The notes below the pieces were generated by a model that was not told where the DNA came from, did not search any database, and saw nothing but the letters and a program-made list of their open reading frames with translations. This document shows, piece by piece, positions 50,612-62,600 of a stretch of 64,000 nucleotides of DNA. The translations under genes were made by a program, and so were the position numbers. Each line of letters starts with the position of its first letter. The stretch's first letter is position 1. Origin of the DNA: Niveispirillum lacus. Lineage in GTDB: Bacteria; Pseudomonadota; Alphaproteobacteria; Azospirillales; Azospirillaceae. Where the stretch lies: the NCBI RefSeq assembly GCF_002251795.1, contig NZ_NOXU01000029.1, positions 248,001 to 312,000 on the forward strand, given 5' to 3'.

Positions 50612-50782
50612 GCCAAAACCCATGTCCTGAACATCCTGCATCGCCTGATCGATGGCAAGCCGACCGACGGGCCGACCATCAGTGCACCGCAGACCCTGCT
50701 CCTGCGCCATGAACCCAAGGCCGATGTCGAACGCTATGATGACCTGCGCGCCCACAGCACCGGAGGCCATCATGCGTCATGA
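50612..50782 (+). pseudogene. istA 3' fragment
   Basis: The last 56 codons of an IS21 transposase ([13 protein letters not shown], then [15 protein letters not shown]) remain. The catalytic part is absent. The stop overlaps the istB start by 11 bases, as in complete IS21 elements. Confidence 0.75.
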
Positions 50783-51566
50783 CCCCGCCAGCGCTGCCAT
50801 CGTCATCATGCTGCGAAGTCTCAAGATGTATGGCTTGGCGCAGGCCGTCATCGATCTGATTGAGCAGGGCGCTCCCGCCTTTGAGGCCGCCATCCCCATT
50901 CTGAACCAACTGCTGAAAGCCGAGATGGCGGAACGTGAGGTGCGTTCCATCGCCTATCACACCAAAGCGGCACGGTTCCCAGCCTACAAGGATATGGCAG
51001 GTTTCGATTTCCAGGCCAGTGAGATCAACGAGGCCACAGTGCGCCAGCTCCACCGCTGCGCGTTCATCGATGGTGCGCAGAACATCGTGCTGATCGGTGG
51101 ACCCGGCACCGGCAAGACCCACATCGCGACAGCCATCGCCATCCAGGCGATCGAACATCATCGCCGCAAAGTCCGGTTCCTCTCGACCATCGAACTCGTC
51201 AACGCGCTCGAGCAGGAGAAGGCCAAGGGAAAAGCCGGGCAGTTGGCCGAGGCCATGACACGCCTGTATCTCGTGATCCTGGACGAACTCGGATACCTGC
51301 CGTTCAGCGCATCTGGCGGTGCGCTGCTTTTCCACCTGCTCAGCAAACTCTATGAGCGGACCAGCGTCATCATAACCACCAACCTCAGCTTCAGCGAATG
51401 GGCCACCGTCTTTGGCGATGCCAAAATGACCACCGCCTTGCTCGATCGCCTGACACATCGCTGTCACATCGTCGAAACCGGAAATGACAGCTTTCGCTTC
51501 AAAGCCAGCACTGCCGCAGCATCCGGCAAGAAAAAGGGAAATCCACATGCCTTGACCCAATCATGA
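50772..51566 (+). CDS. IstB helper ATPase of IS21 family
   Basis: The roughly 264-residue AAA+ ATPase has a Walker A motif GGPGTGKTH, Walker [13 protein letters not shown] and a sensor region [13 protein letters not shown], all typical of IstB. It normally activates IstA on target DNA; as istA is destroyed here, it is an orphan. The ATG at 50772 ([11 protein letters not shown]) is the family start. Confidence 0.9.
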
Positions 51567-51616
51567 ACCAAGCCGCATAACTCAATGGTGGGTCAATTCT
51601 CGACGGAAACCCCGGG

Positions 51617-52317
51617 TCAGTTCCGCGTATAAATCAACACCGAGGCCGTCAGCGGACCGATCCCGGGTACTGCCGCCAGACGCTCACTGGCAGCGTTCGC
51701 CTTGTGCCAGGTTAAAATCTCTGCCTCGACCGTCTCAGCCCGCTCCCGCAACTGGTCAACATGTTCAAACAGGCTTGTGATTGCCTGTCTTGCTTCATCG
51801 GGTACGGTGTCCTTATCAGCTTGGGACAGCCGACGGCGAAGATCCTCTGATCTGGCAGTGCCCTTGCCGGCGATCAACCCAAACTCGCCCAGCAGACCGC
51901 GAAGCGCGTTGATGGTGGCAGTCCGTTGACGCACCAGCAAGGCGCGGGTGCGATGAAGGGCCAAAACCGTCTGCTGGGATACGCTCTTGATTGGCACGAA
52001 GCGCATGGTCGGACGGACCACTGCCTCGCAAATCGCCTCGGCGTCGGCCGCATCCGTCTTGTTGCGTTTGACGTAGGGTTCACATATTGCGGCGGAATCA
52101 GCCGAACCTCATGGCCCAGGCGGGTCAATTCCCGCGCCCAATGATGAGCGCTGGAACAGGCCTCAATGCCGACAAGACAAGGGGGCAGCTTGGCAAAGAA
52201 CCCCGCCAGTTGCCCTCTGGCCAGCCGCTTGCGCAACACCGGCTGACCTGCACTGTCCACGCCGTGGACCTGGAAAACCGACTTGGCGATATCAAGACCG
52301 ATCATCTGGACAGACAT
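51617..52317 (-). pseudogene. IS110-family transposase, frameshifted and truncated
   Basis: The N-terminal part (MIGLDIAKSVFQVHG, then GIEACSSAHHW) gives the first Asp and Glu of the DEDD nuclease. At about 52071-52080 one base is missing, and the rest continues in another frame (VRPTMRFVPIKS to VPGIGPLTASVLIYTRN), ending at the IS21 right end. The C-terminal transposase domain is cut off. Not functional. Confidence 0.85.
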
Positions 52318-52779: not shown

Positions 52780-53574
52780 TCACGACGCGTTCAAGGCCGA
52801 ATAATCTTGCAGAATATTGGATATAGAAGAAGAAACAAGTCGCATTTCATCTAAATACCTTAACAACGCCACATCAACTGACATTGATGAAACAAAAAAC
52901 ACTACAGTCATAGCCGCTATAAAATCACCATCCTTTAATATCGGCACCGCAATTGATGCGGTCTTTCCAGGTGTCAAATTGTGAAGGTTGCGGCCTTGAA
53001 CCGCATACCCTTGTTCTTTTATCTGATCGAGATTTAGAGCGTCAGATGCACCTTTCAGATACTCTGAGTCCACCAACTTTGAAACCCGTAGCCAACGCAG
53101 AAGCGCCTCTCGTTCTTCCACGGGGGTAAAGGCCAGACAAAGACGACCAGAGGCGCTGTCCAGAATAGGCAAAGTGAACCCAGGGTAGTAACGCTCGAAC
53201 GTCAAGGACGTGTTCGCATGCGTACTGTCCCTCAGAATCATATTATGTCCAACTCGGGAGGAGATGGACACGGGCCAGCCTATACGCCGTGTGAGAGATA
53301 TTATATGTGGCCGTGCGACTTCAACAAGCAGCTCGCCGTCCTGAAAGCCACAGGAGAGTGACTGAACCAGTGCAGTAGGCTTGTATCGTTTTAGGTCCGG
53401 GTCCATCTCGATTATACCTTCATAGATCAACGTCTGTACCAACCGAAACGCCGTCGGATATGGCACGTCCGCCGCTCTAGAGATTTCCATCATCGTCAGG
53501 GGCCCCATGCGGTTTACCGCCTGTAGGACCGATATGGCGCGACATATCGCGCGGATTGGCACTCCCTTTTCCAA
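52780..53574 (-). CDS. IclR-family transcriptional regulator
   Basis: The 264-residue regulator has a winged helix-turn-helix N-terminus (AISVLQAVNRMGPLTMMEISRAADVPYPTAFRLVQTL region) and the IclR effector-binding domain (SGRLCLAFTPVEEREALL region). Base composition here is lower in GC than its neighbours, which suggests separate origin. It lies beside a transporter and catabolic genes on the same strand and likely controls them in answer to an aromatic or sugar-like effector. Confidence 0.9.
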   Translation of the reverse strand: MEKGVPIRAICRAISVLQAVNRMGPLTMMEISRAADVPYPTAFRLVQTLIYEGIIEMDPDLKRYKPTALVQSLSCGFQDGELLVEVARPHIISLTRRIGWPVSISSRVGHNMILRDSTHANTSLTFERYYPGFTLPILDSASGRLCLAFTPVEEREALLRWLRVSKLVDSEYLKGASDALNLDQIKEQGYAVQGRNLHNLTPGKTASIAVPILKDGDFIAAMTVVFFVSSMSVDVALLRYLDEMRLVSSSISNILQDYSALNAS

Positions 53575-53711: not shown

Positions 53712-55064
53712 CTAAAGCCGAAATTTTCTGAATACCACCAAGGCAAGAATCTGCATCAAGGCCGGGATGACGCTGTATAATAGTAGAATACCGAAAAGCG
53801 CTCCATCACTTTGCGTGATCATGCCCTGTGTAGAAGATTGAAAGCCAAATAGGCTCAGTACAATTCCAGAAAGAAGCGGCCCGACAGCAAATGCCAACTT
53901 CTCCATTGCTGAGAACAGGCCAGCGAAGACCCCTTCATTTGCTGCCCCCGTGGACCGGCGCTGATAATCCACAGTGTCGGTCATCAACGAAAGCGCCAGC
54001 AGGACAAAGCCGCCATTGGCGACACCGATTACCACCGACCGCAACAGGATGAGGAGATGTTCGCCGGTCAGCGCCTGCCCCCACGGCAGGTGGACCATTT
54101 CGTCACCACCGGCACCCAGGAATAGCCAACTGAAGGTCACCGCGATCCAGACAATTGAAGCAAGGACGTAAGAACGGGCTTTACCAATCTTCCGGGGCAA
54201 CCATAGCCAAATAGGCTTGGCCGCAAGGCTGGATGACGCCATGACCAGAATATAGAGTGGGATAAGCCAGACTGCCTGCGCTACATACAAGAACACAAAG
54301 CCGATTACGGTGTAGCTGGCGGCCTGCCCAATGTTCGATAGGAAGCTGGCCGAGAGCAAAATGAGAAACGGCCGGTTCTTCGATACCACCTTGATCTGCC
54401 GAAAAAGATTGCCTGGCACCCAAGCAACGCCGATCAATGGCACCCCGCGAAGGCCGACGGCCGTAATCAGCATGGACGCCAGACATATGGAACCTAGTAT
54501 CCAGCTCATCGCGTGCCAGCCGTCCGCACCGCCGCCGAAATGAACTATCAGCAACTGAGGTGCCCCAACCCCAACAAGCACACCGAAGGAGCCAAAGATC
54601 ATACGCAGAACCATGACGCGGTTGCGTTCAAACGGATCGGGAGAGAGCTCTGCGGCGACGGCGAGATAGGGAACGGAGTATATGCTGAAGGCTGTCGAAG
54701 CCAAAAAGAAGATGACACAGACCGATATCGCCGCCAGCCAGGGATTGGGATAGCCGACCACCAGAAACAGTGAAAGGAAGCCTAACGCCGTACCCAGCGC
54801 TCCAAATAGCAGGAAGGGCGTGCGACCCACCGTTCCTTTTACCCGGTCTGACCAGAGCCCAACGAGGGGATCGCAAGCGATTAACCATAGTTTGGGGATG
54901 AGTACCACGATCCCGGCCAACCAAGCCGGTACTCCCAACATGGTTGTCATGAACAGTGGCAGTAAGACGGCAGGCGTGTCCCGGAAAATCTGCGCACCCA
55001 GTTGTCCGACGCCGTAGCGCAGAACGACCGATGTCGGCAACCGGTGCGCGGATCCTGTGTTCAT
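53712..55064 (-). CDS. GPH-family (MFS_2) cation symporter
   Basis: The roughly 450-residue membrane protein has 12 predicted helices and the GPH/MFS_2 loop DPLVGLWSDRVKGTVGRTPFLLFGA between helices 2 and 3. The family takes up glycosides, pentosides, hexuronides and some other organic acids with Na+ or H+. The ATG at 55064 is preferred; the frame extends to 55100. Its downstream partner genes are enzymes on the same strand, so it probably imports their substrate across the inner membrane. Confidence 0.88.
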   Translation of the reverse strand: MNTGSAHRLPTSVVLRYGVGQLGAQIFRDTPAVLLPLFMTTMLGVPAWLAGIVVLIPKLWLIACDPLVGLWSDRVKGTVGRTPFLLFGALGTALGFLSLFLVVGYPNPWLAAISVCVIFFLASTAFSIYSVPYLAVAAELSPDPFERNRVMVLRMIFGSFGVLVGVGAPQLLIVHFGGGADGWHAMSWILGSICLASMLITAVGLRGVPLIGVAWVPGNLFRQIKVVSKNRPFLILLSASFLSNIGQAASYTVIGFVFLYVAQAVWLIPLYILVMASSSLAAKPIWLWLPRKIGKARSYVLASIVWIAVTFSWLFLGAGGDEMVHLPWGQALTGEHLLILLRSVVIGVANGGFVLLALSLMTDTVDYQRRSTGAANEGVFAGLFSAMEKLAFAVGPLLSGIVLSLFGFQSSTQGMITQSDGALFGILLLYSVIPALMQILALVVFRKFRL

Positions 55065-55138
55065 GCCAACAAAGCCCCTTTTACTTGATGCACATCCCAC
55101 CTCGGCTGGGTTTGCCAGGAAGGCTGGCTTGTAACATG

Positions 55139-56995
55139 CTATTCAGTCAGCGTAATCACGACCTTGCCGAAGGGACCGGTTGCAGCATGGCGGTACGCTG
55201 CGTCGGCGGCGTCGAAGGCGAATACTCGGTCAATGATCGGCTTGATCCGGTGCTCAGCCATGAAATTCAACAGGTCCTGATGATCCTGGCGCGAACCCAC
55301 CAGGACTGCGCTGACCCGCAGGGCAGAGAAGATAAGAGGCATCGCGTCGATTTGGCCACCGAACCCGTCGAGTGCGCCAATCAGCGCGAGGTGCCCACCC
55401 AATCCCAGGCAGGCGATGGAATTCGCCAACGTGCCGACGCCACCCAGTTCAACGACATGATCGACCCCCATGCCGCCAGTCAACTTACGTACAGGCTCCG
55501 CCCATTGCGGGTGGTCACGATAATTGACGCCGTCCACCGCCCCTAGTTTTCTGGCGCGGTCGATTTTGTCAGCACTGGATGACAGGATGATGGGACGCGC
55601 ACCGGACGCCGCCACGATCTGCAGCGCGAACAAGGCGACACCACCCGTGCCCAGGATCGCAACATGGTCGCCCGACTTCAACCCACCCAAAGTCTTCAGC
55701 GCGCTCCAGGCCGTAACACCGGCGCAGGGAACGCAAGCCGCTTCCTGATAGGTCCAACCATCAGGGATGGACAGCACGCCCGTTTCCGCCAGCACGACAT
55801 GGTCAGCGAAAACGCCGGAGCCACCCGCCCCAAGAGAAGACAGTACAGCCGGCAATGTCGGACGACCGCCTGGATAGTTCTGAAAGAAGGTAGACATTAC
55901 CCGGTCACCGGGTTTGAACGCTGTCACCCCCGAACCAACGGCGACGACATCGCCGGCGGCATCCGAAAGGGGCGTGAAGTGGTCGGCTCCATTCACGGGG
56001 TAGGAAAGGTCGCGGACCCCAAGATCGCGGCGGTTCAATGATACCGCCCGCACCCGAACCAGCACTTCTCCTGGTCCAGGAACTGGTATGGTGCCATCGG
56101 CCCTGGCGAGGCCATATCCCGCTTCGCCCCGTACCAATGTGTACCGACGGCTGTCCATGCCCTTGTCCCCTGTTATGAAGCTGATAATGGCGCGCGTAAA
56201 GGCACCGGTCTGCCGCTCGGGCGTCGCTAGGAATGCCGGTCCTGTGATCGCCACCGGAACCGTTGGAAACATCTCCCGAAAGCGGGTCAGCATGCCATTC
56301 AGCGTCAGCGGGTCGTCGGATGCTTGCACGGCCTGCACCGGCACGCGGCCATCATCAATGATCCGGCGCATAACGCTGGCGAAGTCCTGATCAAAAATGG
56401 CGTCAAAGGCCAGGTCGCGTCCCCGCCCCGCCATCAGGGCGCCAAGCGCCTCGGCATGGACAAGGTCCGGCACGGGGTCCAGGAACAGACCCTTCATTTG
56501 CCGGTAGGTGCCAGCAAAATACGTCCCCTCGGCGTCGACCGGGGGCGCGTAGCCGATATCCGCCCTCAGCTTCCGCCGCTCATCCTCCGGTGCCAGAAGA
56601 ATACCGGAGAGTGTCAAGGAGCGCACACGATCCGGCACCGAGGCCGCAATTTCGGCTGCGAAATGGGAGCCGGTATGGTGGGCCACCAAATGAAAGTTGC
56701 CGACGCCCAACGCGTCAAGAGCCTGCAATATCCATCTGGCGTAATCGGTCGTACGGGGGACGCCCTCGGGCAGAAAGCTTTCACCAAACCCCGGTGTGTC
56801 CAGGGCAACCGCGGAAAAACCAGCATCCGCCAGCATACACATCACCCGCTCAAAGCCGGCGGAGCTGACCGGTGTGCGGTGAAGGAGCACCACTGTCTCG
56901 CCACTGCCCAGGACGCGACGCCCATGGATCTGGCCTGCTTCTGTCTGGGCGTAGAATTTCGTAATCATTTTGCGCGCCCCTTTGACGATGGTCAT
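55139..56995 (-). CDS. Fusion of an alpha/beta hydrolase and a medium-chain dehydrogenase
   Basis: One open frame of 618 codons contains two enzymes. Residues about 1-275 form an alpha/beta hydrolase (VVLLHRTPVSS oxyanion loop, DTPGFGES), but the nucleophile elbow reads AHHTG, so the usual Ser is His107. Residues from about 280 form a zinc-type medium-chain dehydrogenase (GEVLVRVRAVSLNRRDL, then LGTGGVALFALQIVAASGA). An ATG at 56158 with GGGACAAGG before it could also start the dehydrogenase alone. No stop separates the halves. It overlaps the flavin monooxygenase stop by four bases. Confidence 0.85.
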   Translation of the reverse strand: MTIVKGARKMITKFYAQTEAGQIHGRRVLGSGETVVLLHRTPVSSAGFERVMCMLADAGFSAVALDTPGFGESFLPEGVPRTTDYARWILQALDALGVGNFHLVAHHTGSHFAAEIAASVPDRVRSLTLSGILLAPEDERRKLRADIGYAPPVDAEGTYFAGTYRQMKGLFLDPVPDLVHAEALGALMAGRGRDLAFDAIFDQDFASVMRRIIDDGRVPVQAVQASDDPLTLNGMLTRFREMFPTVPVAITGPAFLATPERQTGAFTRAIISFITGDKGMDSRRYTLVRGEAGYGLARADGTIPVPGPGEVLVRVRAVSLNRRDLGVRDLSYPVNGADHFTPLSDAAGDVVAVGSGVTAFKPGDRVMSTFFQNYPGGRPTLPAVLSSLGAGGSGVFADHVVLAETGVLSIPDGWTYQEAACVPCAGVTAWSALKTLGGLKSGDHVAILGTGGVALFALQIVAASGARPIILSSSADKIDRARKLGAVDGVNYRDHPQWAEPVRKLTGGMGVDHVVELGGVGTLANSIACLGLGGHLALIGALDGFGGQIDAMPLIFSALRVSAVLVGSRQDHQDLLNFMAEHRIKPIIDRVFAFDAADAAYRHAATGPFGKVVITLTE

Positions 56996-58230
56996 ATCTG
57001 GGTGCCAATGATCACGCGCTCAACCTTGGGGTCCGTTGTCTCACGGTCAATCAGCGGATCACCGGTGGGCAGGCCCAAGGCCAGCATCCCGGTCGGTGCC
57101 ATGCTATGGTCCCAGTGCAGTTCCACATGGGTGGTGATGCTGCGACAATCCGTGTAGAGGCGCGGCACTGGATTGGATTGAAGCTGGCCACCGGCACCCA
57201 AGCCCGCCGACAGCCGATCCGCCGCCGACAGGCACATCCTTGACGCGAATGTTACATTGCGCTTACCCCACAAAAGATCATCAGGCGCAATGTCATTGCC
57301 TGATAGTCCCCAGGCGTGCAGGCGGCGAACATACTCATCGAAGACCAGCGTTGCCGCATCAATCTCGGCCGTAGCGACGCCGAGATTGACCTGTACAGGG
57401 GTTTGAACAGCAACACGTTCGCCGACGATCTGCCCACGGCGCTTGGCCGTTTGTTCAATGGTTGCGTTCAACGCACCCTTTGCCGTGCCCAGCAGAGGCC
57501 CCATGAAGTAGCTTTTCTGCAAGGGGGCCGGTCGCAGGCGATAGACGTAGCTGCTGTGGATTTCCGATCCCGGCGGGTTGGGTGCCAGATATACGTCCCG
57601 CTCAACCAGCCGTTCGTCGGGAATGAACTGGTTTACGATCTTGACGTGATGGCTGCCCGTCGCATGCAGGCCGGCCGAGTCCCATGTATCCTCAATCGTG
57701 TATTCACCAGGCAACAGCAGGCAGAAATGCGTAAACAGCGGCCCGTCACCTTCCTTGGCGATGACCATCAGCCCCCCAGCATGGCGCACCCCGCTGGCCC
57801 AGCCCCATCGGCCGCTGAGCTGCATTCCCCCCGGCACCCGCTCCAGAACGCCGGAACCCGCTGAGGCTGTCGCCAGGATTCCGTCCGGAGACGCGGTGAA
57901 GAAGGCGTCTTGTGCCTTCTCCGGAAAGCGACCGATGCACATGACATGGGTGAAAACCAACCCGGCGATCCAACCCGCCGACCCACAGGCCTGGGCAATT
58001 TCGCGCGAGATGTAATAATGCGCGCCCCAATCTAGCTCATAGCCGCCGTATCGGCTGGGCATGTAGGCTTTGTGCAGGCCTGCCTCCTTCATGGCCGCAA
58101 TCACGGACACCGGAAGATCGCGGGCACCGCGATAAGACGGAACAGCGGCAGCGATTTCCGGGACCAGATCACGGGCGGCGGTGACGAGATCGGCGCACTT
58201 CGCCGAAATCTCAGGTCGGCTGACGGTCAT
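56992..58230 (-). CDS. Flavin-dependent monooxygenase of the acyl-CoA dehydrogenase fold
   Basis: This 412-residue protein resembles group D flavin monooxygenases (HsaA, HpaB-type oxygenase components): the N-terminal helical part ending GLHKAYMPSRYGG, central WGWASGVRHAGG, and C-terminal SNPVPRLYTDCRSITTHVELHWD. Such enzymes use reduced flavin from a separate reductase to hydroxylate phenols; no flavin reductase gene lies in the window. It is first in the four-gene minus-strand group (monooxygenase, fusion, symporter, IclR). Confidence 0.85.
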   Translation of the reverse strand: MTVSRPEISAKCADLVTAARDLVPEIAAAVPSYRGARDLPVSVIAAMKEAGLHKAYMPSRYGGYELDWGAHYYISREIAQACGSAGWIAGLVFTHVMCIGRFPEKAQDAFFTASPDGILATASAGSGVLERVPGGMQLSGRWGWASGVRHAGGLMVIAKEGDGPLFTHFCLLLPGEYTIEDTWDSAGLHATGSHHVKIVNQFIPDERLVERDVYLAPNPPGSEIHSSYVYRLRPAPLQKSYFMGPLLGTAKGALNATIEQTAKRRGQIVGERVAVQTPVQVNLGVATAEIDAATLVFDEYVRRLHAWGLSGNDIAPDDLLWGKRNVTFASRMCLSAADRLSAGLGAGGQLQSNPVPRLYTDCRSITTHVELHWDHSMAPTGMLALGLPTGDPLIDRETTDPKVERVIIGTQI

Positions 58231-58633
58231 GGGGCACTCGACATTCTGATTGGACGGAATGTGACGATGTTATTGCAGGCTCAATGTTCGAGCCAAAAAC
58301 TGTTCGGGAATCATGACCCCATTTGGTTGTCTGCCTGCGCGCCCCCTCCTGCGACACCGCCTAGGGCTCAAATGTGGTCTATCCGCCTGGTGGTAAGCGC
58401 AAGGCAGAAGGTGTTGAGCAAAAAAATTGCCGGAATAATCTGAACCACCAAAGTTGGTTCCGGTACTGCTTTCTGATTTCGCTCAAGCACATTCGACGAT
58501 CAGAGGGGTGCCTAACCGGGCAGCACCCCCACGACATGATGTGCGACTGGTGCCGCGCAGATCGGAGACGCGACTTTGGAAATGCGGCGTGTCCGCGCTG
58601 TTTCCCAATACACTCAATAATGCAGGGGGCTTC
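58231..58633. other. Intergenic region between divergent genes
   Basis: About 400 bases lie between the flavin monooxygenase and the TonB receptor, transcribed away from each other. Promoters must lie here, but no -35/-10 pair stands out, and the shared operator of the upstream regulon is not present. A GGGGG ribosome-site-like run precedes the receptor ATG at 58634. Confidence 0.5.
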
Positions 58634-61069
58634 ATGTACCGTTCTAAAATCGTTGCCCTGACCACGTCTGCCCTGGTCAGCGCCTTCGCTGCTTCCGCTG
58701 TCGTTCCTGCCGCCCTGGCAGCAGAGGACGAACTGGTGCTGGAAGAAATCATCGTTACGGCTCGTAAGCGTAAGGAGGACATTCAGACCGTTCCCATCAC
58801 CATCCAAGCCTTGACGGCGGGTGATCTGGCCGAACGGAATATCAACAGCCTGACTGACCTCGGCAGTTCGACACCTGGGATCACCGTTTCGAACATCACC
58901 GGCGGAACGTTCACCAACGTGATGGTCCGGGGTCTGGCACCGGCAAACTCGTCGTCAGACCTGAATATCGAGGCAAATGTCGGCATTTTCATTGATGGCA
59001 TTTACCAGACAAGCCGGAATGCCGCAGATGTCCTGTCAACGGTGGATATTGCCCAGGTTGATGTCGTTAAGGGGCCGCAGAGCGCGCTTTACGGGCGGTC
59101 CACCTTCGCCGGCGCATTGGGCATTACCACCGTGCGGCCTGGCAATAATCCGGAAGGCAAGGCGACGGTTACCATTGGTAACAATGGTGATTACCGTGGC
59201 AAGGTATCGCTGTCCAAGCCGATCATCGAAGACAAGCTCTCGGGATCTATCGCGGCCAACTGGTCCAGTTATGGTGGCGAGTTCGATAACCTCAACAATC
59301 CGTCAGACAAGCTGGGGGGGTATGAAAAGCGCGGCGTCTCTGGCGCACTTGTCTTCACACCGACGGAGAATTTCACAGCGACGTTTACGGGTTTTGCGAC
59401 CAAATCCACCATGGAATTGCCGGGCCTCTCGCGCAACCCACTCTCCACTCATAATTGCGGTGGCTTCAACGCGCAGACGCAGGCTTACTTCATCTATTGC
59501 GGCGAAGTGGCCACCAATCTGCCGATTGATGTCAGCCGCAATATCCCGGACAGCACCTCCAAATCACGTCAAGGGGCGCTGGAGCTGGAATATGAGTTCG
59601 ACGCCTTTTCCATCGTCAGCGTCACCGGCATCTCCGCATCGGAAGTCTATGCATCGAATGATGCAGACACGATCGGCGACGGTGCCCTTTATGGCGTCTG
59701 TACCGTCGGCAGCACCTGCGGCGCCACCACGGGCACCTATACCCGCACTGTCCGGGGGAACTCCATCACGGTCAGCAATGATCACGTTGTAACGAAAAGC
59801 CAGGAACTGCGCATCCAGTCGCCCGACACGGATCGGTTCCAGTGGCTGGCCGGTGCCTTCTTCTTCCAGTCAAATGTCGATGCCAAGACATGGTCGGGCA
59901 CCACGGCTGCGGGACTTACCACGACTGAGCGTCTGGTCCAGATTCTGCCCGGCCTGGCGGCGGGTACCGGTCCGCTGGCAGCCACGGCGAATTCCGGCTT
60001 GGTCTTTGAGCCCGGATCATTCGTTCGGATGTCCAGTTTGGCCTATAAGCAAAACATCACCCGCTCCCTGTTCGGCTCCCTGGGCTATGAGGTGCTGGAC
60101 GGTCTGCGTGTTTCGGCCGAGGGGCGGTACAACATCGACCGTAAGACCGATGATTGCCGTTTGAGCTTCTTTGCACCCTGCGCCGGCGTACAACCGTTGT
60201 CGGGCGAGTTCACCAGCTTTACCCCGCGTTTTACCGTGGACTACAAGGCATCGGAAGACATCTTTCTGTTTGCATCTGCCGCGAAGGGCGTGCGTTCCGG
60301 TGGCTTCAATACAGTGGCCGGTCTGACCGACAGCGAGCGGACCTTTGATGAAGAAGAGAATTGGACATACGAAGCAGGGCTGAAGTCCTGGCTGTTTGAT
60401 CGCCGCCTGATGCTGAACGCGTCGCTGTTCCGCGTGAACTGGAAAAATCTGCAGATTTCCACCTTCTCCCCCAATACCACCGTTGCACAGGCCATCATCA
60501 TGAATGCCGGGGGGATGAAGACCAACGGCGTCGAGGTTCAGACCGAATTCAAGGCGACGGATATTCTGTCAGTTGGCGGATCGGTGACCTACTCCGATCC
60601 CCAATATGGCAACGGTGCCTATGATCCTGCCTATACGACCCAGTGTGGCAACCCATCGACCATTTGCGACCTGGTCACCATTGCTGGCCGCGGACTGCAG
60701 GCCTCTATCGAGGGCAATCGGCCTGCCCGCTCTGTGAAGCTGCAGTATAATCTGCATGCTACGGCTGACGTGCCGGTTTCTGCCGACTGGACCCTCTCCG
60801 GTCGCGTGGATGTCAGTTATGTTGGGCCGACCTATACCAACAGCCTCAACTTGACCAGCTTTGGCGAACGGACACTGACCAACCTGCGGGTCGCGCTTGA
60901 TAATGATGTTTATTCCATCGCGGCCTGGGTGACCAACCTGACCGACGAGCAGTACAACGCCAATGTCATCCAACAGCCGCGCAACTACTCGATCGGCACC
61001 CAACGCATCCTGGAGGCCTACCGTGGCGATGGACGGCGTTTTGGCGTGACGGCATCGGCCAAGTTCTGA
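58634..61069 (+). CDS. TonB-dependent outer-membrane receptor
   Basis: The 811-residue receptor has a signal peptide ending AALAA, a TonB box-like IIVTARKRK, a plug domain (VVKGPQSALYGRSTFAG) and a barrel ending in Phe (ASAKF). It is larger than the receptor at 40316 and is grouped with a Tat-exported amine oxidase. It likely takes up the substrate of this island. The start at 58634 opens on the signal peptide; an upstream frame to 58454 was rejected. Confidence 0.92.
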   Translation: MYRSKIVALTTSALVSAFAASAVVPAALAAEDELVLEEIIVTARKRKEDIQTVPITIQALTAGDLAERNINSLTDLGSSTPGITVSNITGGTFTNVMVRGLAPANSSSDLNIEANVGIFIDGIYQTSRNAADVLSTVDIAQVDVVKGPQSALYGRSTFAGALGITTVRPGNNPEGKATVTIGNNGDYRGKVSLSKPIIEDKLSGSIAANWSSYGGEFDNLNNPSDKLGGYEKRGVSGALVFTPTENFTATFTGFATKSTMELPGLSRNPLSTHNCGGFNAQTQAYFIYCGEVATNLPIDVSRNIPDSTSKSRQGALELEYEFDAFSIVSVTGISASEVYASNDADTIGDGALYGVCTVGSTCGATTGTYTRTVRGNSITVSNDHVVTKSQELRIQSPDTDRFQWLAGAFFFQSNVDAKTWSGTTAAGLTTTERLVQILPGLAAGTGPLAATANSGLVFEPGSFVRMSSLAYKQNITRSLFGSLGYEVLDGLRVSAEGRYNIDRKTDDCRLSFFAPCAGVQPLSGEFTSFTPRFTVDYKASEDIFLFASAAKGVRSGGFNTVAGLTDSERTFDEEENWTYEAGLKSWLFDRRLMLNASLFRVNWKNLQISTFSPNTTVAQAIIMNAGGMKTNGVEVQTEFKATDILSVGGSVTYSDPQYGNGAYDPAYTTQCGNPSTICDLVTIAGRGLQASIEGNRPARSVKLQYNLHATADVPVSADWTLSGRVDVSYVGPTYTNSLNLTSFGERTLTNLRVALDNDVYSIAAWVTNLTDEQYNANVIQQPRNYSIGTQRILEAYRGDGRRFGVTASAKF

Positions 61070-61087
61070 TTGCCAATTGTATCCGCG

Positions 61088-61112
61088 TCCCCCTGCCATC
61101 TTGGCGGGGGGA
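61088..61112 (+). terminator. Strong hairpin after the TonB receptor gene
   Basis: TCCCCC-TGCCA pairs with TGGCG-GGGGGA around a 3-base loop (one G-T pair). It is followed by a modest T-rich tract (ATCTTTCTT), so it can act as terminator or attenuator before the amine oxidase gene. Confidence 0.65.
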
Positions 61113-61136
61113 CCACATCTTTCTTCGGAGAATGCC

Positions 61137-62600
61137 ATGAGAAACAGTACGGTTCCTCTGTCTCGCCGTACAGTCGTCGGTGGCCTGCTGGCCGCCGCCC
61201 CCCTGGTCATCGCGTCGCGCGGTTGGGCCGCTGGCCCCAAAGAGGTGGATATCATCGTTGTCGGTGCCGGTCTGGCCGGCTTGAACGCGGCAATGTTGCT
61301 ACAGGAACAGGGGCTTTCCGTACAGGTGCTTGAGGCATCCGACCGTGTGGGGGGACGCCTGCGCACGGGTCGCGCGGAGGGCTATCAGGCTGAGTTGGGC
61401 GGCAGTGAGGTCGGCGACCTTTACGGACGTGTTCGTGATGCCTGTCAGCGTCTGAATGTCGGTCTGACGAACAAGGCGATCAAAAGCGCTGAAGCCATGT
61501 TCCATATCGATGGCACCACGGTTCTGGCATCCGACTGGTCGGGCTCTGCGGCTAATCACACACGCGGCAGGGAACGGGCCTTTCTGCCTAATATTCTGCA
61601 AAACCGCCTGATGCATGATTGGCTGCCGTTCAAGCAGACCAATGCCTGGCTGCAGCCCGAGAACATGCAGTATGACGTATCCGCAGCGGAGTTCATGCGC
61701 GCCAAGGGTGTGTCAGAGGCGGCTATCCGTCTGGCAGATGTTGATCTGAATGGGTCCAGCCTGGAGGGTGTGTCTGCCCTGTCGATCTTCCGCGATATGG
61801 CCCGTGCCCAGGTAGAAGGCTATGTCGATCCCAACCGGCCACAATACGGGTCAAATTCCGAAGCCGCCCGCAGCTTCATTGTTGGTGGTTCCGATATGTT
61901 GCCCAAAGCCATGGCCGCCAGTCTGAAATCGCCCGTCCGCCTGCACAGTCCCGTATTGGCCATCGACCAGTCGGGGGATAAGGTGAAGGTGCTGCTGGGC
62001 AGCGGTGAGGTGCTGACCAGCCGGTTCGTGGTGGTCGCGGCCCCGTTCAGTGCCGTTGCCCGTATCCGCTTCACCCCGGGCCTGCCCGACGCCCAGGCGG
62101 ATGCGGTCGCAGGCGCACGCTATTCCGCGACAACGCAGTTCCATTTCAAGATCGTCAAACCCTATTGGGAAAAGGACGGCCTGCCGCCATCGATCTGGAG
62201 CAACGCGTCGTTCGAACGGGCCTTTGCCCGCAAGGATCCCGATACGGGCGCCATCGATACCATGATCGTCTGGGTCAATGGCGATGGGGCGACCCGGTGG
62301 GATGACCGCGATACGGACAAGCAGGTGGAACTGGTGCTGTCTGAGCTAGCCCGCATTCGCCCCTCTATGGCCGGCGCCTTGAAGTACCAGTTTGGCTATA
62401 GCTGGGGCCGCAATCCCTATGTCGGTGGCAATAAGCATTTCTATGCTCCCGGCCAGGTAAAGCGGTTTGCCGCCGACATGGGCAAGCCCGCCGGGCGCAT
62501 CCATTTCGCGGGCGAACATCTACGCCGTCTGGAACATGGTATGGAAAGCGCCATGGAAACCGGTGAAGCCGCAGCTATGGAGATCATGGAACGGCTCTGA
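61137..62600 (+). CDS. Flavin-containing amine oxidase with Tat signal
   Basis: The 487-residue protein starts with a Tat-type signal (SRRTVVGGLLAAAPLVIA, twin Arg). The FAD domain follows (IIVVGAGLAGLNAAMLLQ, then RVGGRLRT) and the C-terminal GRIHFAGEHL is the usual FAD-binding end of monoamine-oxidase proteins. It would oxidise an amine or a C-N/C-C bond in the periplasm and is probably co-transcribed with the receptor. The substrate is not evident. Confidence 0.88.
   Translation: MRNSTVPLSRRTVVGGLLAAAPLVIASRGWAAGPKEVDIIVVGAGLAGLNAAMLLQEQGLSVQVLEASDRVGGRLRTGRAEGYQAELGGSEVGDLYGRVRDACQRLNVGLTNKAIKSAEAMFHIDGTTVLASDWSGSAANHTRGRERAFLPNILQNRLMHDWLPFKQTNAWLQPENMQYDVSAAEFMRAKGVSEAAIRLADVDLNGSSLEGVSALSIFRDMARAQVEGYVDPNRPQYGSNSEAARSFIVGGSDMLPKAMAASLKSPVRLHSPVLAIDQSGDKVKVLLGSGEVLTSRFVVVAAPFSAVARIRFTPGLPDAQADAVAGARYSATTQFHFKIVKPYWEKDGLPPSIWSNASFERAFARKDPDTGAIDTMIVWVNGDGATRWDDRDTDKQVELVLSELARIRPSMAGALKYQFGYSWGRNPYVGGNKHFYAPGQVKRFAADMGKPAGRIHFAGEHLRRLEHGMESAMETGEAAAMEIMERL

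Follow-up and report, generated by a model that had tools for sequence, protein, structure and literature searches.

A histidine at the nucleophile elbow of an alpha/beta-hydrolase fused in frame to a medium-chain dehydrogenase/reductase in Niveispirillum lacus

A protein that joins two enzyme folds in one reading frame, and that carries a histidine in place of the usual nucleophile of its alpha/beta-hydrolase half, is encoded in Niveispirillum lacus. The window in which it was found is the whole stretch of DNA analysed here, 64,000 nucleotides in length (contig NZ_NOXU01000029.1, positions 248,001 to 312,000). It is a genuine fusion that has been conserved, though its distribution is rare and patchy. 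Its 618-aa open reading frame (ORF) encodes, in a single frame, an alpha/beta-hydrolase half that a short linker connects to a medium-chain dehydrogenase/reductase (MDR) half. The main parts, in window coordinates, are:

55139..56995, (-) strand: whole fused ORF, 618 aa (open frame, Pfam domains, homologues)
56171..56995, (-) strand: alpha/beta-hydrolase half, residues 1-275 (Pfam, and a model of residues 1-276 with pLDDT 95.3)
56156..56158, (-) strand: internal ATG (M280) at the joint, invariant in 17/17 fusions, a possible second start
55139..56158, (-) strand: MDR half, residues 280-618, QOR/enoyl-reductase-like (Pfam, fold match, alignment with 9flz)

Pfam domains on the fused protein are Abhydrolase_1 (34-158), ADH_N (307-412) and ADH_zinc_N (452-580). 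The original prediction had placed a hydrolase and a dehydrogenase half in one stop-free frame, and the ORF, its strand and its ends are as it gave them. It had also considered that a sequencing error might hide a stop near 56158. This position is the first base of the in-frame ATG of M280, and in relatives of 92%, 63% and 55% identity no stop interrupts this joint; these relatives and the stop-free translation of all 17 fused ORFs rule out such an error. The true start of the protein may be M10 (56968), giving 609 aa, since this codon is preceded by AAAGGGG and matches the starts of L031 and L034.

A search for the same fusion in other genomes, as originally proposed, led to 17 distinct full-length fusions, that of the window counted in, after the removal of duplicates; they are from a paralogue in the same genome (55% identity over nearly the whole length), Azospirillaceae, Caulobacter, Novosphingobium and a Steroidobacteraceae MAG. 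The L022 fusion, L028, L029, L050 and L051 were dropped before the residue counts as second copies of the same genome. The fusion of genome G002 is 92% identical to that of the window and the one of G028 63%, while in G003 both fusion ends were present on two contigs, each broken at the contig end. Scanning contigs with an alignment of the hydrolase half confirmed 106 relatives, and the best 80 loci comprised 14 fused genes, 2 cut at contig ends and 64 standalone. Among these best 80 of the 106, identity to the window was at least 50% for fused and cut genes and at most 42% for standalone ones. Separate genes in all homologues, a possibility raised at the outset, are not the case: at identities of at least 50%, 14 of 16 loci are fused and the other two are cut by contig ends, and none of the 16 has separate adjacent genes.

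Identity to the window is alike in both halves (51-91% and 54-94%). In the hydrolase tree, a single change of state accounts for the fusions when the two cut rows are left out (L069 and L087 were also left out of this tree), and in the tree of the MDR half the fused halves form one side of a branch (100/99). As unrooted trees, both fit a single fusion event, kept in frame across several bacterial families. Among 59 relatives, the fusion was full-length in three genomes (our own included) and split at contig ends in one. Only our own genome carried it, at E 1e-85 or better, in a sample of the class (1/385) and in a sample of the phylum (1/398). A match in G149 that apparently reached into the hydrolase half proved to be an ordinary standalone MDR gene. 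Viral contigs gave 27 pattern matches with no relative among them, and no plasmid record contained at least 80% of the fusion at a single site. Neither the elbow His nor this fusion was found in literature titles and abstract openings, a search that had most subscription journals outside its range.

The joint between the halves is variable in length. Counted from residue 262 up to, but not including, M280, it has seven lengths (18 to 30 aa) among the 17 rows, all in frame and free of stops, which argues that read-through is kept. Columns 275-279, just before M280, are highly variable, and M280 is the sole invariant Met (17/17) among the 14 Met of the window protein. Furthermore, anti-Shine-Dalgarno pairing upstream of M280 exceeds that at randomly drawn positions within genes (p 0.0017 with 11 rows, about 0.006 with eight lineages), p values for a site that was chosen after it had been seen. 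An internal start at M280, also giving a free MDR protein, may exist on these patterns. One could go further and suppose that the cell makes largely two proteins, with M280 as a separate start and the fused frame mattering less. The invariant Met directly behind variable columns and the pairing at this post hoc site are in keeping with two proteins, but the frame preserved through seven joint lengths and the weak Shine-Dalgarno-like signal in L032, L033, L036 and L037 make them rather improbable in our judgement.

The residues on which the interpretation of the hydrolase half depends are:

56675..56677, (-) strand: codon of His107, at the nucleophile elbow (alignments and both models)
56876..56878, (-) strand: Arg40, Arg in 17/17 fused members and Gln in 55/73 standalone rows; presumably the Gly of an HG oxyanion motif is usual here
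56312..56314, (-) strand: Asp228, at the acid position after strand 220-225 (17/17 fused, 70/73 standalone rows)
56231..56233, (-) strand: Phe255, aligned with the beta8-loop catalytic His of other hydrolases (no His in 17/17 fused)

AlphaFold2 modelled the whole protein with pLDDT 92.9 and pTM 0.89 from a 64-row alignment (63 of 105 listed entries plus the window), and the hydrolase half alone with pLDDT 95.3 and pTM 0.92 (44 rows). The model has an alpha/beta-hydrolase fold with a strand-elbow-helix, in which His107 lies between strand 101-106 and helix 108-119, as it does in the hydrolase-only model. The elbow reads V-A-H106-H107-T-G. That His107 takes the place of the Ser nucleophile, the central claim of the original prediction, is thus borne out by 17 of 17 fusions and by the elbow position in a confident model. 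Ser, Cys or Asp was found at the elbow neither in the fused members (His in 17/17) nor in 72 of the 73 standalone rows, which likewise have His. The acid after beta7 is present as Asp228. The catalytic His of the loop after beta8 is absent from 17/17 fused members, position 255 being Phe in eight and Gly in nine, as read from alignment and not from a solved structure. With His at the elbow and the beta8 His lost, the fused hydrolase half has no classical Ser-His-Asp triad. Invariant in the 17 fusions are H39, R40, H106, H107, T108, G109, H111, E182, D204, D227 and D228.

In the available part of a 2024 classification of alpha/beta-hydrolases, the elbow residue is Ser, Cys or Asp, or there is no Ser, and the His after beta8 is called 'totally conserved'; families of this fold without a triad are described as well (PMC11878206). 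Could His107 itself be the covalent nucleophile of an otherwise hydrolytic enzyme? It sits at the nucleophile elbow, next to T108 and G109, which 17/17 fusions share. However, the nucleophiles named in that part of the classification are Ser, Cys and Asp only (PMC11878206), and the fused members lack the beta8 His needed to activate water. We consider a covalent His decidedly unlikely.

The elbow His was originally presented as a feature of the fusion. It is indeed present there, but it is not peculiar to it and marks a larger group of standalone proteins. Judged by its sequences, this x-HTG group is many-membered and unnamed, has His at the elbow and consists mostly of standalone proteins, with the elbow H-T and Asp228 among its most conserved positions. 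One of the two search patterns contained HH[TS]G. Of the 91 rows, 45 do not match this pattern (13 fused, 2 cut, 30 standalone), and the His is not owed to the search motif, because 44 of them still have His (one has Ala). A search of 59 relatives by similarity only was read at 46 loci, 26 taken automatically and 20 from the top of the list. The 49 aligned stretches of these loci, among which weaker Ser/Asp matches are under-sampled, had 29 His, 9 Ser, 7 Asp, 3 Gly and 1 Phe at the elbow, the Gly stretches being the second stretches of three long proteins. Twenty-nine stretches scored above the first Asp or Ser protein, 28 with His and one with Phe. The long proteins encoded at L122:384-2063, L156:1589-3280 and L159:2021-3799 each have two alpha/beta-hydrolase stretches: the elbow is HTG or HTS in one, and the other has Gly at the nucleophile position.

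A tree built without the elbow columns, with 65 rows (47 His, 9 Ser, 7 Asp, 1 Phe, 1 Ala), requires three changes of the His label, or one if the Phe and Ala rows are either added to the His group or removed. A single branch (97/85) parts the His, Phe and Ala rows from the Ser and Asp rows. The tree fits one gain of His followed by two later changes, to Ala in L101 and to Phe in L140. The similarity-only loci, the rows outside the pattern and the elbow-free tree together rule out a one-off decay of the elbow. Unlike the fused members, 41 of 68 standalone rows have a His at 254-256 in the beta8 loop, so a moved catalytic base would not be group-wide.

Existing family models and structures do not capture the group. 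None of ten standalone HTG proteins passed an NCBIfam cut-off among the matches listed, and the fused protein passed none among the best 25 of 34 families. Sequence searches of the PDB with the window half, profile A4 and five standalone members found no close relative; single sequences scored 44-63 bits at best and the profile 102 bits, and the elbow in the alignments, among the matches listed, was Ser, Asp or, in one mutant, Asn. Plasmid-borne members in annotated records are named merely 'alpha/beta hydrolase'. A standalone HHSG hydrolase in the same cluster as the window fusion (L022:12416-13615) adjoins, with two orthologues, the fused clade in the hydrolase tree. At L045, an HTG hydrolase occurs with HyuA/HyuB homologues on a contig whose label, a Klebsiella pneumoniae MAG, looks doubtful.

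By VIA-align, the hydrolase half resembles the feruloyl esterase 7dq9 (Z 30.8, rmsd 2.4, 258 aligned), the E2AMS hydrolase 3kxp (29.9) and the enol-lactonase 2xua (29.8), which are tied within about 1, are 17-22% identical to it and which we take to be Ser-His-Asp enzymes. It also shares its fold with the meta-cleavage-product C-C hydrolase DxnB2 (4lyd; Z 28.0, rmsd 2.5, 248 aligned). Z values of this kind do not point to one function. Compared with BphD, MhpC and DxnB2, the fusion has His for Ser at the elbow and has lost the beta8 His, and the HsaD model gave the fused protein 34.1 bits against a cut-off of 400. Haloalkane and fluoroacetate dehalogenases and epoxide hydrolases, with an Asp elbow, held the first Foldseek ranks, and DmmA was the best phmmer match (43.6 bits); their elbow Asp is His here, and the beta8 His is missing in the fused members.

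MKS1 and HOD are alpha/beta-fold enzymes in which, as here, the elbow Ser is not needed as nucleophile, according to the accessible portion of the source (PMC10548524). Their base is a His elsewhere, whereas x-HTG has its His at the elbow. The same portion states that HOD-type enzymes can do without the elbow Ser, which may be replaced by Ala, and that the triad His with Asp serves as the base (PMC10548524). A cofactor-free dioxygenase of the HOD/QDO type, one of the roles first proposed for the hydrolase half, would agree with the dispensable Ser and with the flavin monooxygenases encoded nearby. However, the position aligned with the triad His that HOD uses is Phe or Gly in 17/17 fusions, and for this reason the dioxygenase proposal is left without support and appears very improbable.

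For the MDR half, an MDR fold with a nucleotide-binding domain of the QOR/enoyl-reductase type was found. Its closest fold is 3uog (Z 46.5, rmsd 2.2, 337 aligned, 39% identity), and 9vey matched it with 225 bits; both are MDR quinone oxidoreductase-like. The chains of 3uog, 9vey and 7vem have 336-363 aa and no hydrolase half, unlike the window protein. Aligned with 9flz, which we take to be a zinc enzyme with the ligand roles assumed for these positions, two of the three catalytic zinc ligands of zinc alcohol dehydrogenases are replaced (Cys by Asn321, His by Ser344), which leaves Cys424 as the one retained ligand; 17/17 fused members share Asn321 and Cys424. With two of three ligands missing, the MDR half should be a zinc-independent NAD(P)H oxidoreductase, QOR/enoyl-reductase-like.

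The gene neighbourhood of the fusion in the window contains:

56992..58230, (-) strand: HsaA-like flavin-dependent monooxygenase (acyl-CoA dehydrogenase fold), directly upstream (NF045629, 202.7 bits, below the cut-off of 450)
53712..55100, (-) strand: GPH/MFS-type transporter, downstream in the same direction (Pfam/NCBIfam)
52780..53574, (-) strand: IclR-type regulator (Pfam/NCBIfam)
61077..62600, (+) strand: flavin amine-oxidase-like protein of a divergent unit (Pfam; signal peptide by eye)
58454-61069: TonB-dependent receptor, neighbour of the amine oxidase (read by eye)

The HsaA-like ORF overlaps the annotated ATG of the fusion by 4 bases. About 1.7 kb beyond the right end of the window, the same cluster encodes an alpha/beta-hydrolase half fused to a flavin reductase (PF01613; L022:13706-14851), which might feed the HsaA-like monooxygenase. 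The window cluster (L022) and L021 (G000:C22) are paralogous clusters of one genome, both with a fusion, a 79% identical amine oxidase, a DUF1838 protein and, by eye, a similar outer-membrane receptor. Insertion-sequence remains were seen by eye at window positions 50652-52317; they comprise an IstB-like ORF (50652-51566) and an IS110-like transposase whose coding sequence is broken into two frames.

What lies next to a fused gene varies from lineage to lineage. Across the 17 fused loci, homologues of SDR (11), methyltransferase (9), FAD monooxygenase, ALDH, amine oxidase and LysR (4 each), DUF1838 (3), HsaA-like proteins (2) and IclR (2) were counted, and those of DmpG, MhpD and LigB occurred in 0/17 within limited flanks of differing length. 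Among 62 standalone loci, homologues of the meta-cleavage genes DmpG and MhpD occurred together beside the hydrolase in 15, LigB in 4, an FAD-linked oxidase in 5 and DUF1838 in 4. The 15 DmpG/MhpD loci, their genes called with an ad hoc GC3 rule, were searched roughly for a Ser-elbow motif: 13 gave none, and the other two gave one GESAG esterase-like protein each. This meta-cleavage context belongs to distant standalone relatives (at most 42% identity). Rhodococcus sp. YL-1 has a separate HHTG hydrolase gene that shares one base with a distantly related MDR gene. Across 83 loci (L028-L110), ten pairs of a standalone hydrolase with a nearby MDR gene were listed, and in three pairs (L059, L064, L108) the two genes share a strand and lie within 1 kb of each other; as MDR genes are common, this pairing is weak. 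The neighbourhoods suggest catabolic bond cleavage and an occasional pairing with an MDR enzyme, with no defined reaction.

The catabolic clusters around standalone relatives also bear on whether the hydrolase half could have lost catalysis and serve the MDR enzyme as a scaffold or regulatory domain. Two of three triad residues are changed, and triad-less families of the fold are on record in the portion of the classification available (PMC11878206). A dead domain would, however, not need the elbow H-T and Asp228 that are among the best conserved positions of the group, and we think such a domain unlikely.

On the observed elbow His, Asp228, lost beta8 His and conserved fusion, and on the modelled fold, we would instead build a bifunctional catabolic enzyme, in which base-catalysed cleavage by His107/Asp228 is followed by MDR reduction; we hold this reading with some reserve, as plausible but short of probable. 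In this mechanism, the most economical one, His107 paired with Asp228 would be a general base and not a Ser-type covalent nucleophile, so that in the fused members the catalytic base would in effect have shifted from the beta8 loop to the elbow. The hydrolase half would carry out a C-C or C-O cleavage of the retro-Claisen, retro-aldol or lactone type, its substrate might be an oxygenated intermediate from the neighbouring flavin monooxygenases, and the MDR half would use NAD(P)H to reduce the product, whether unsaturated or a carbonyl compound. The passing of a product to the dehydrogenase, as originally suggested, would be part of this scheme. The internal start may supply extra free MDR subunits. 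Counted against base catalysis are the two members without the elbow His and the 0/17 fused loci with DmpG, MhpD or LigB.

A broader proposal, which we put forward more tentatively still, is that x-HTG would form a catalytic class of its own within the alpha/beta-hydrolase fold, with the elbow His, aided by the beta7 acid, as the base and no need for a Ser, Cys or Asp nucleophile in bond cleavage. One lineage would have been fused to an MDR enzyme, for cleavage and then reduction, with a built-in second start for the reductase. If this is true, an elbow His, partly without a beta8 His, would be a further active-site arrangement of the fold, and one that is directly testable. The fusion itself gives a handle on the chemistry, since its reductase half is expected to serve the pathway of the hydrolase half.
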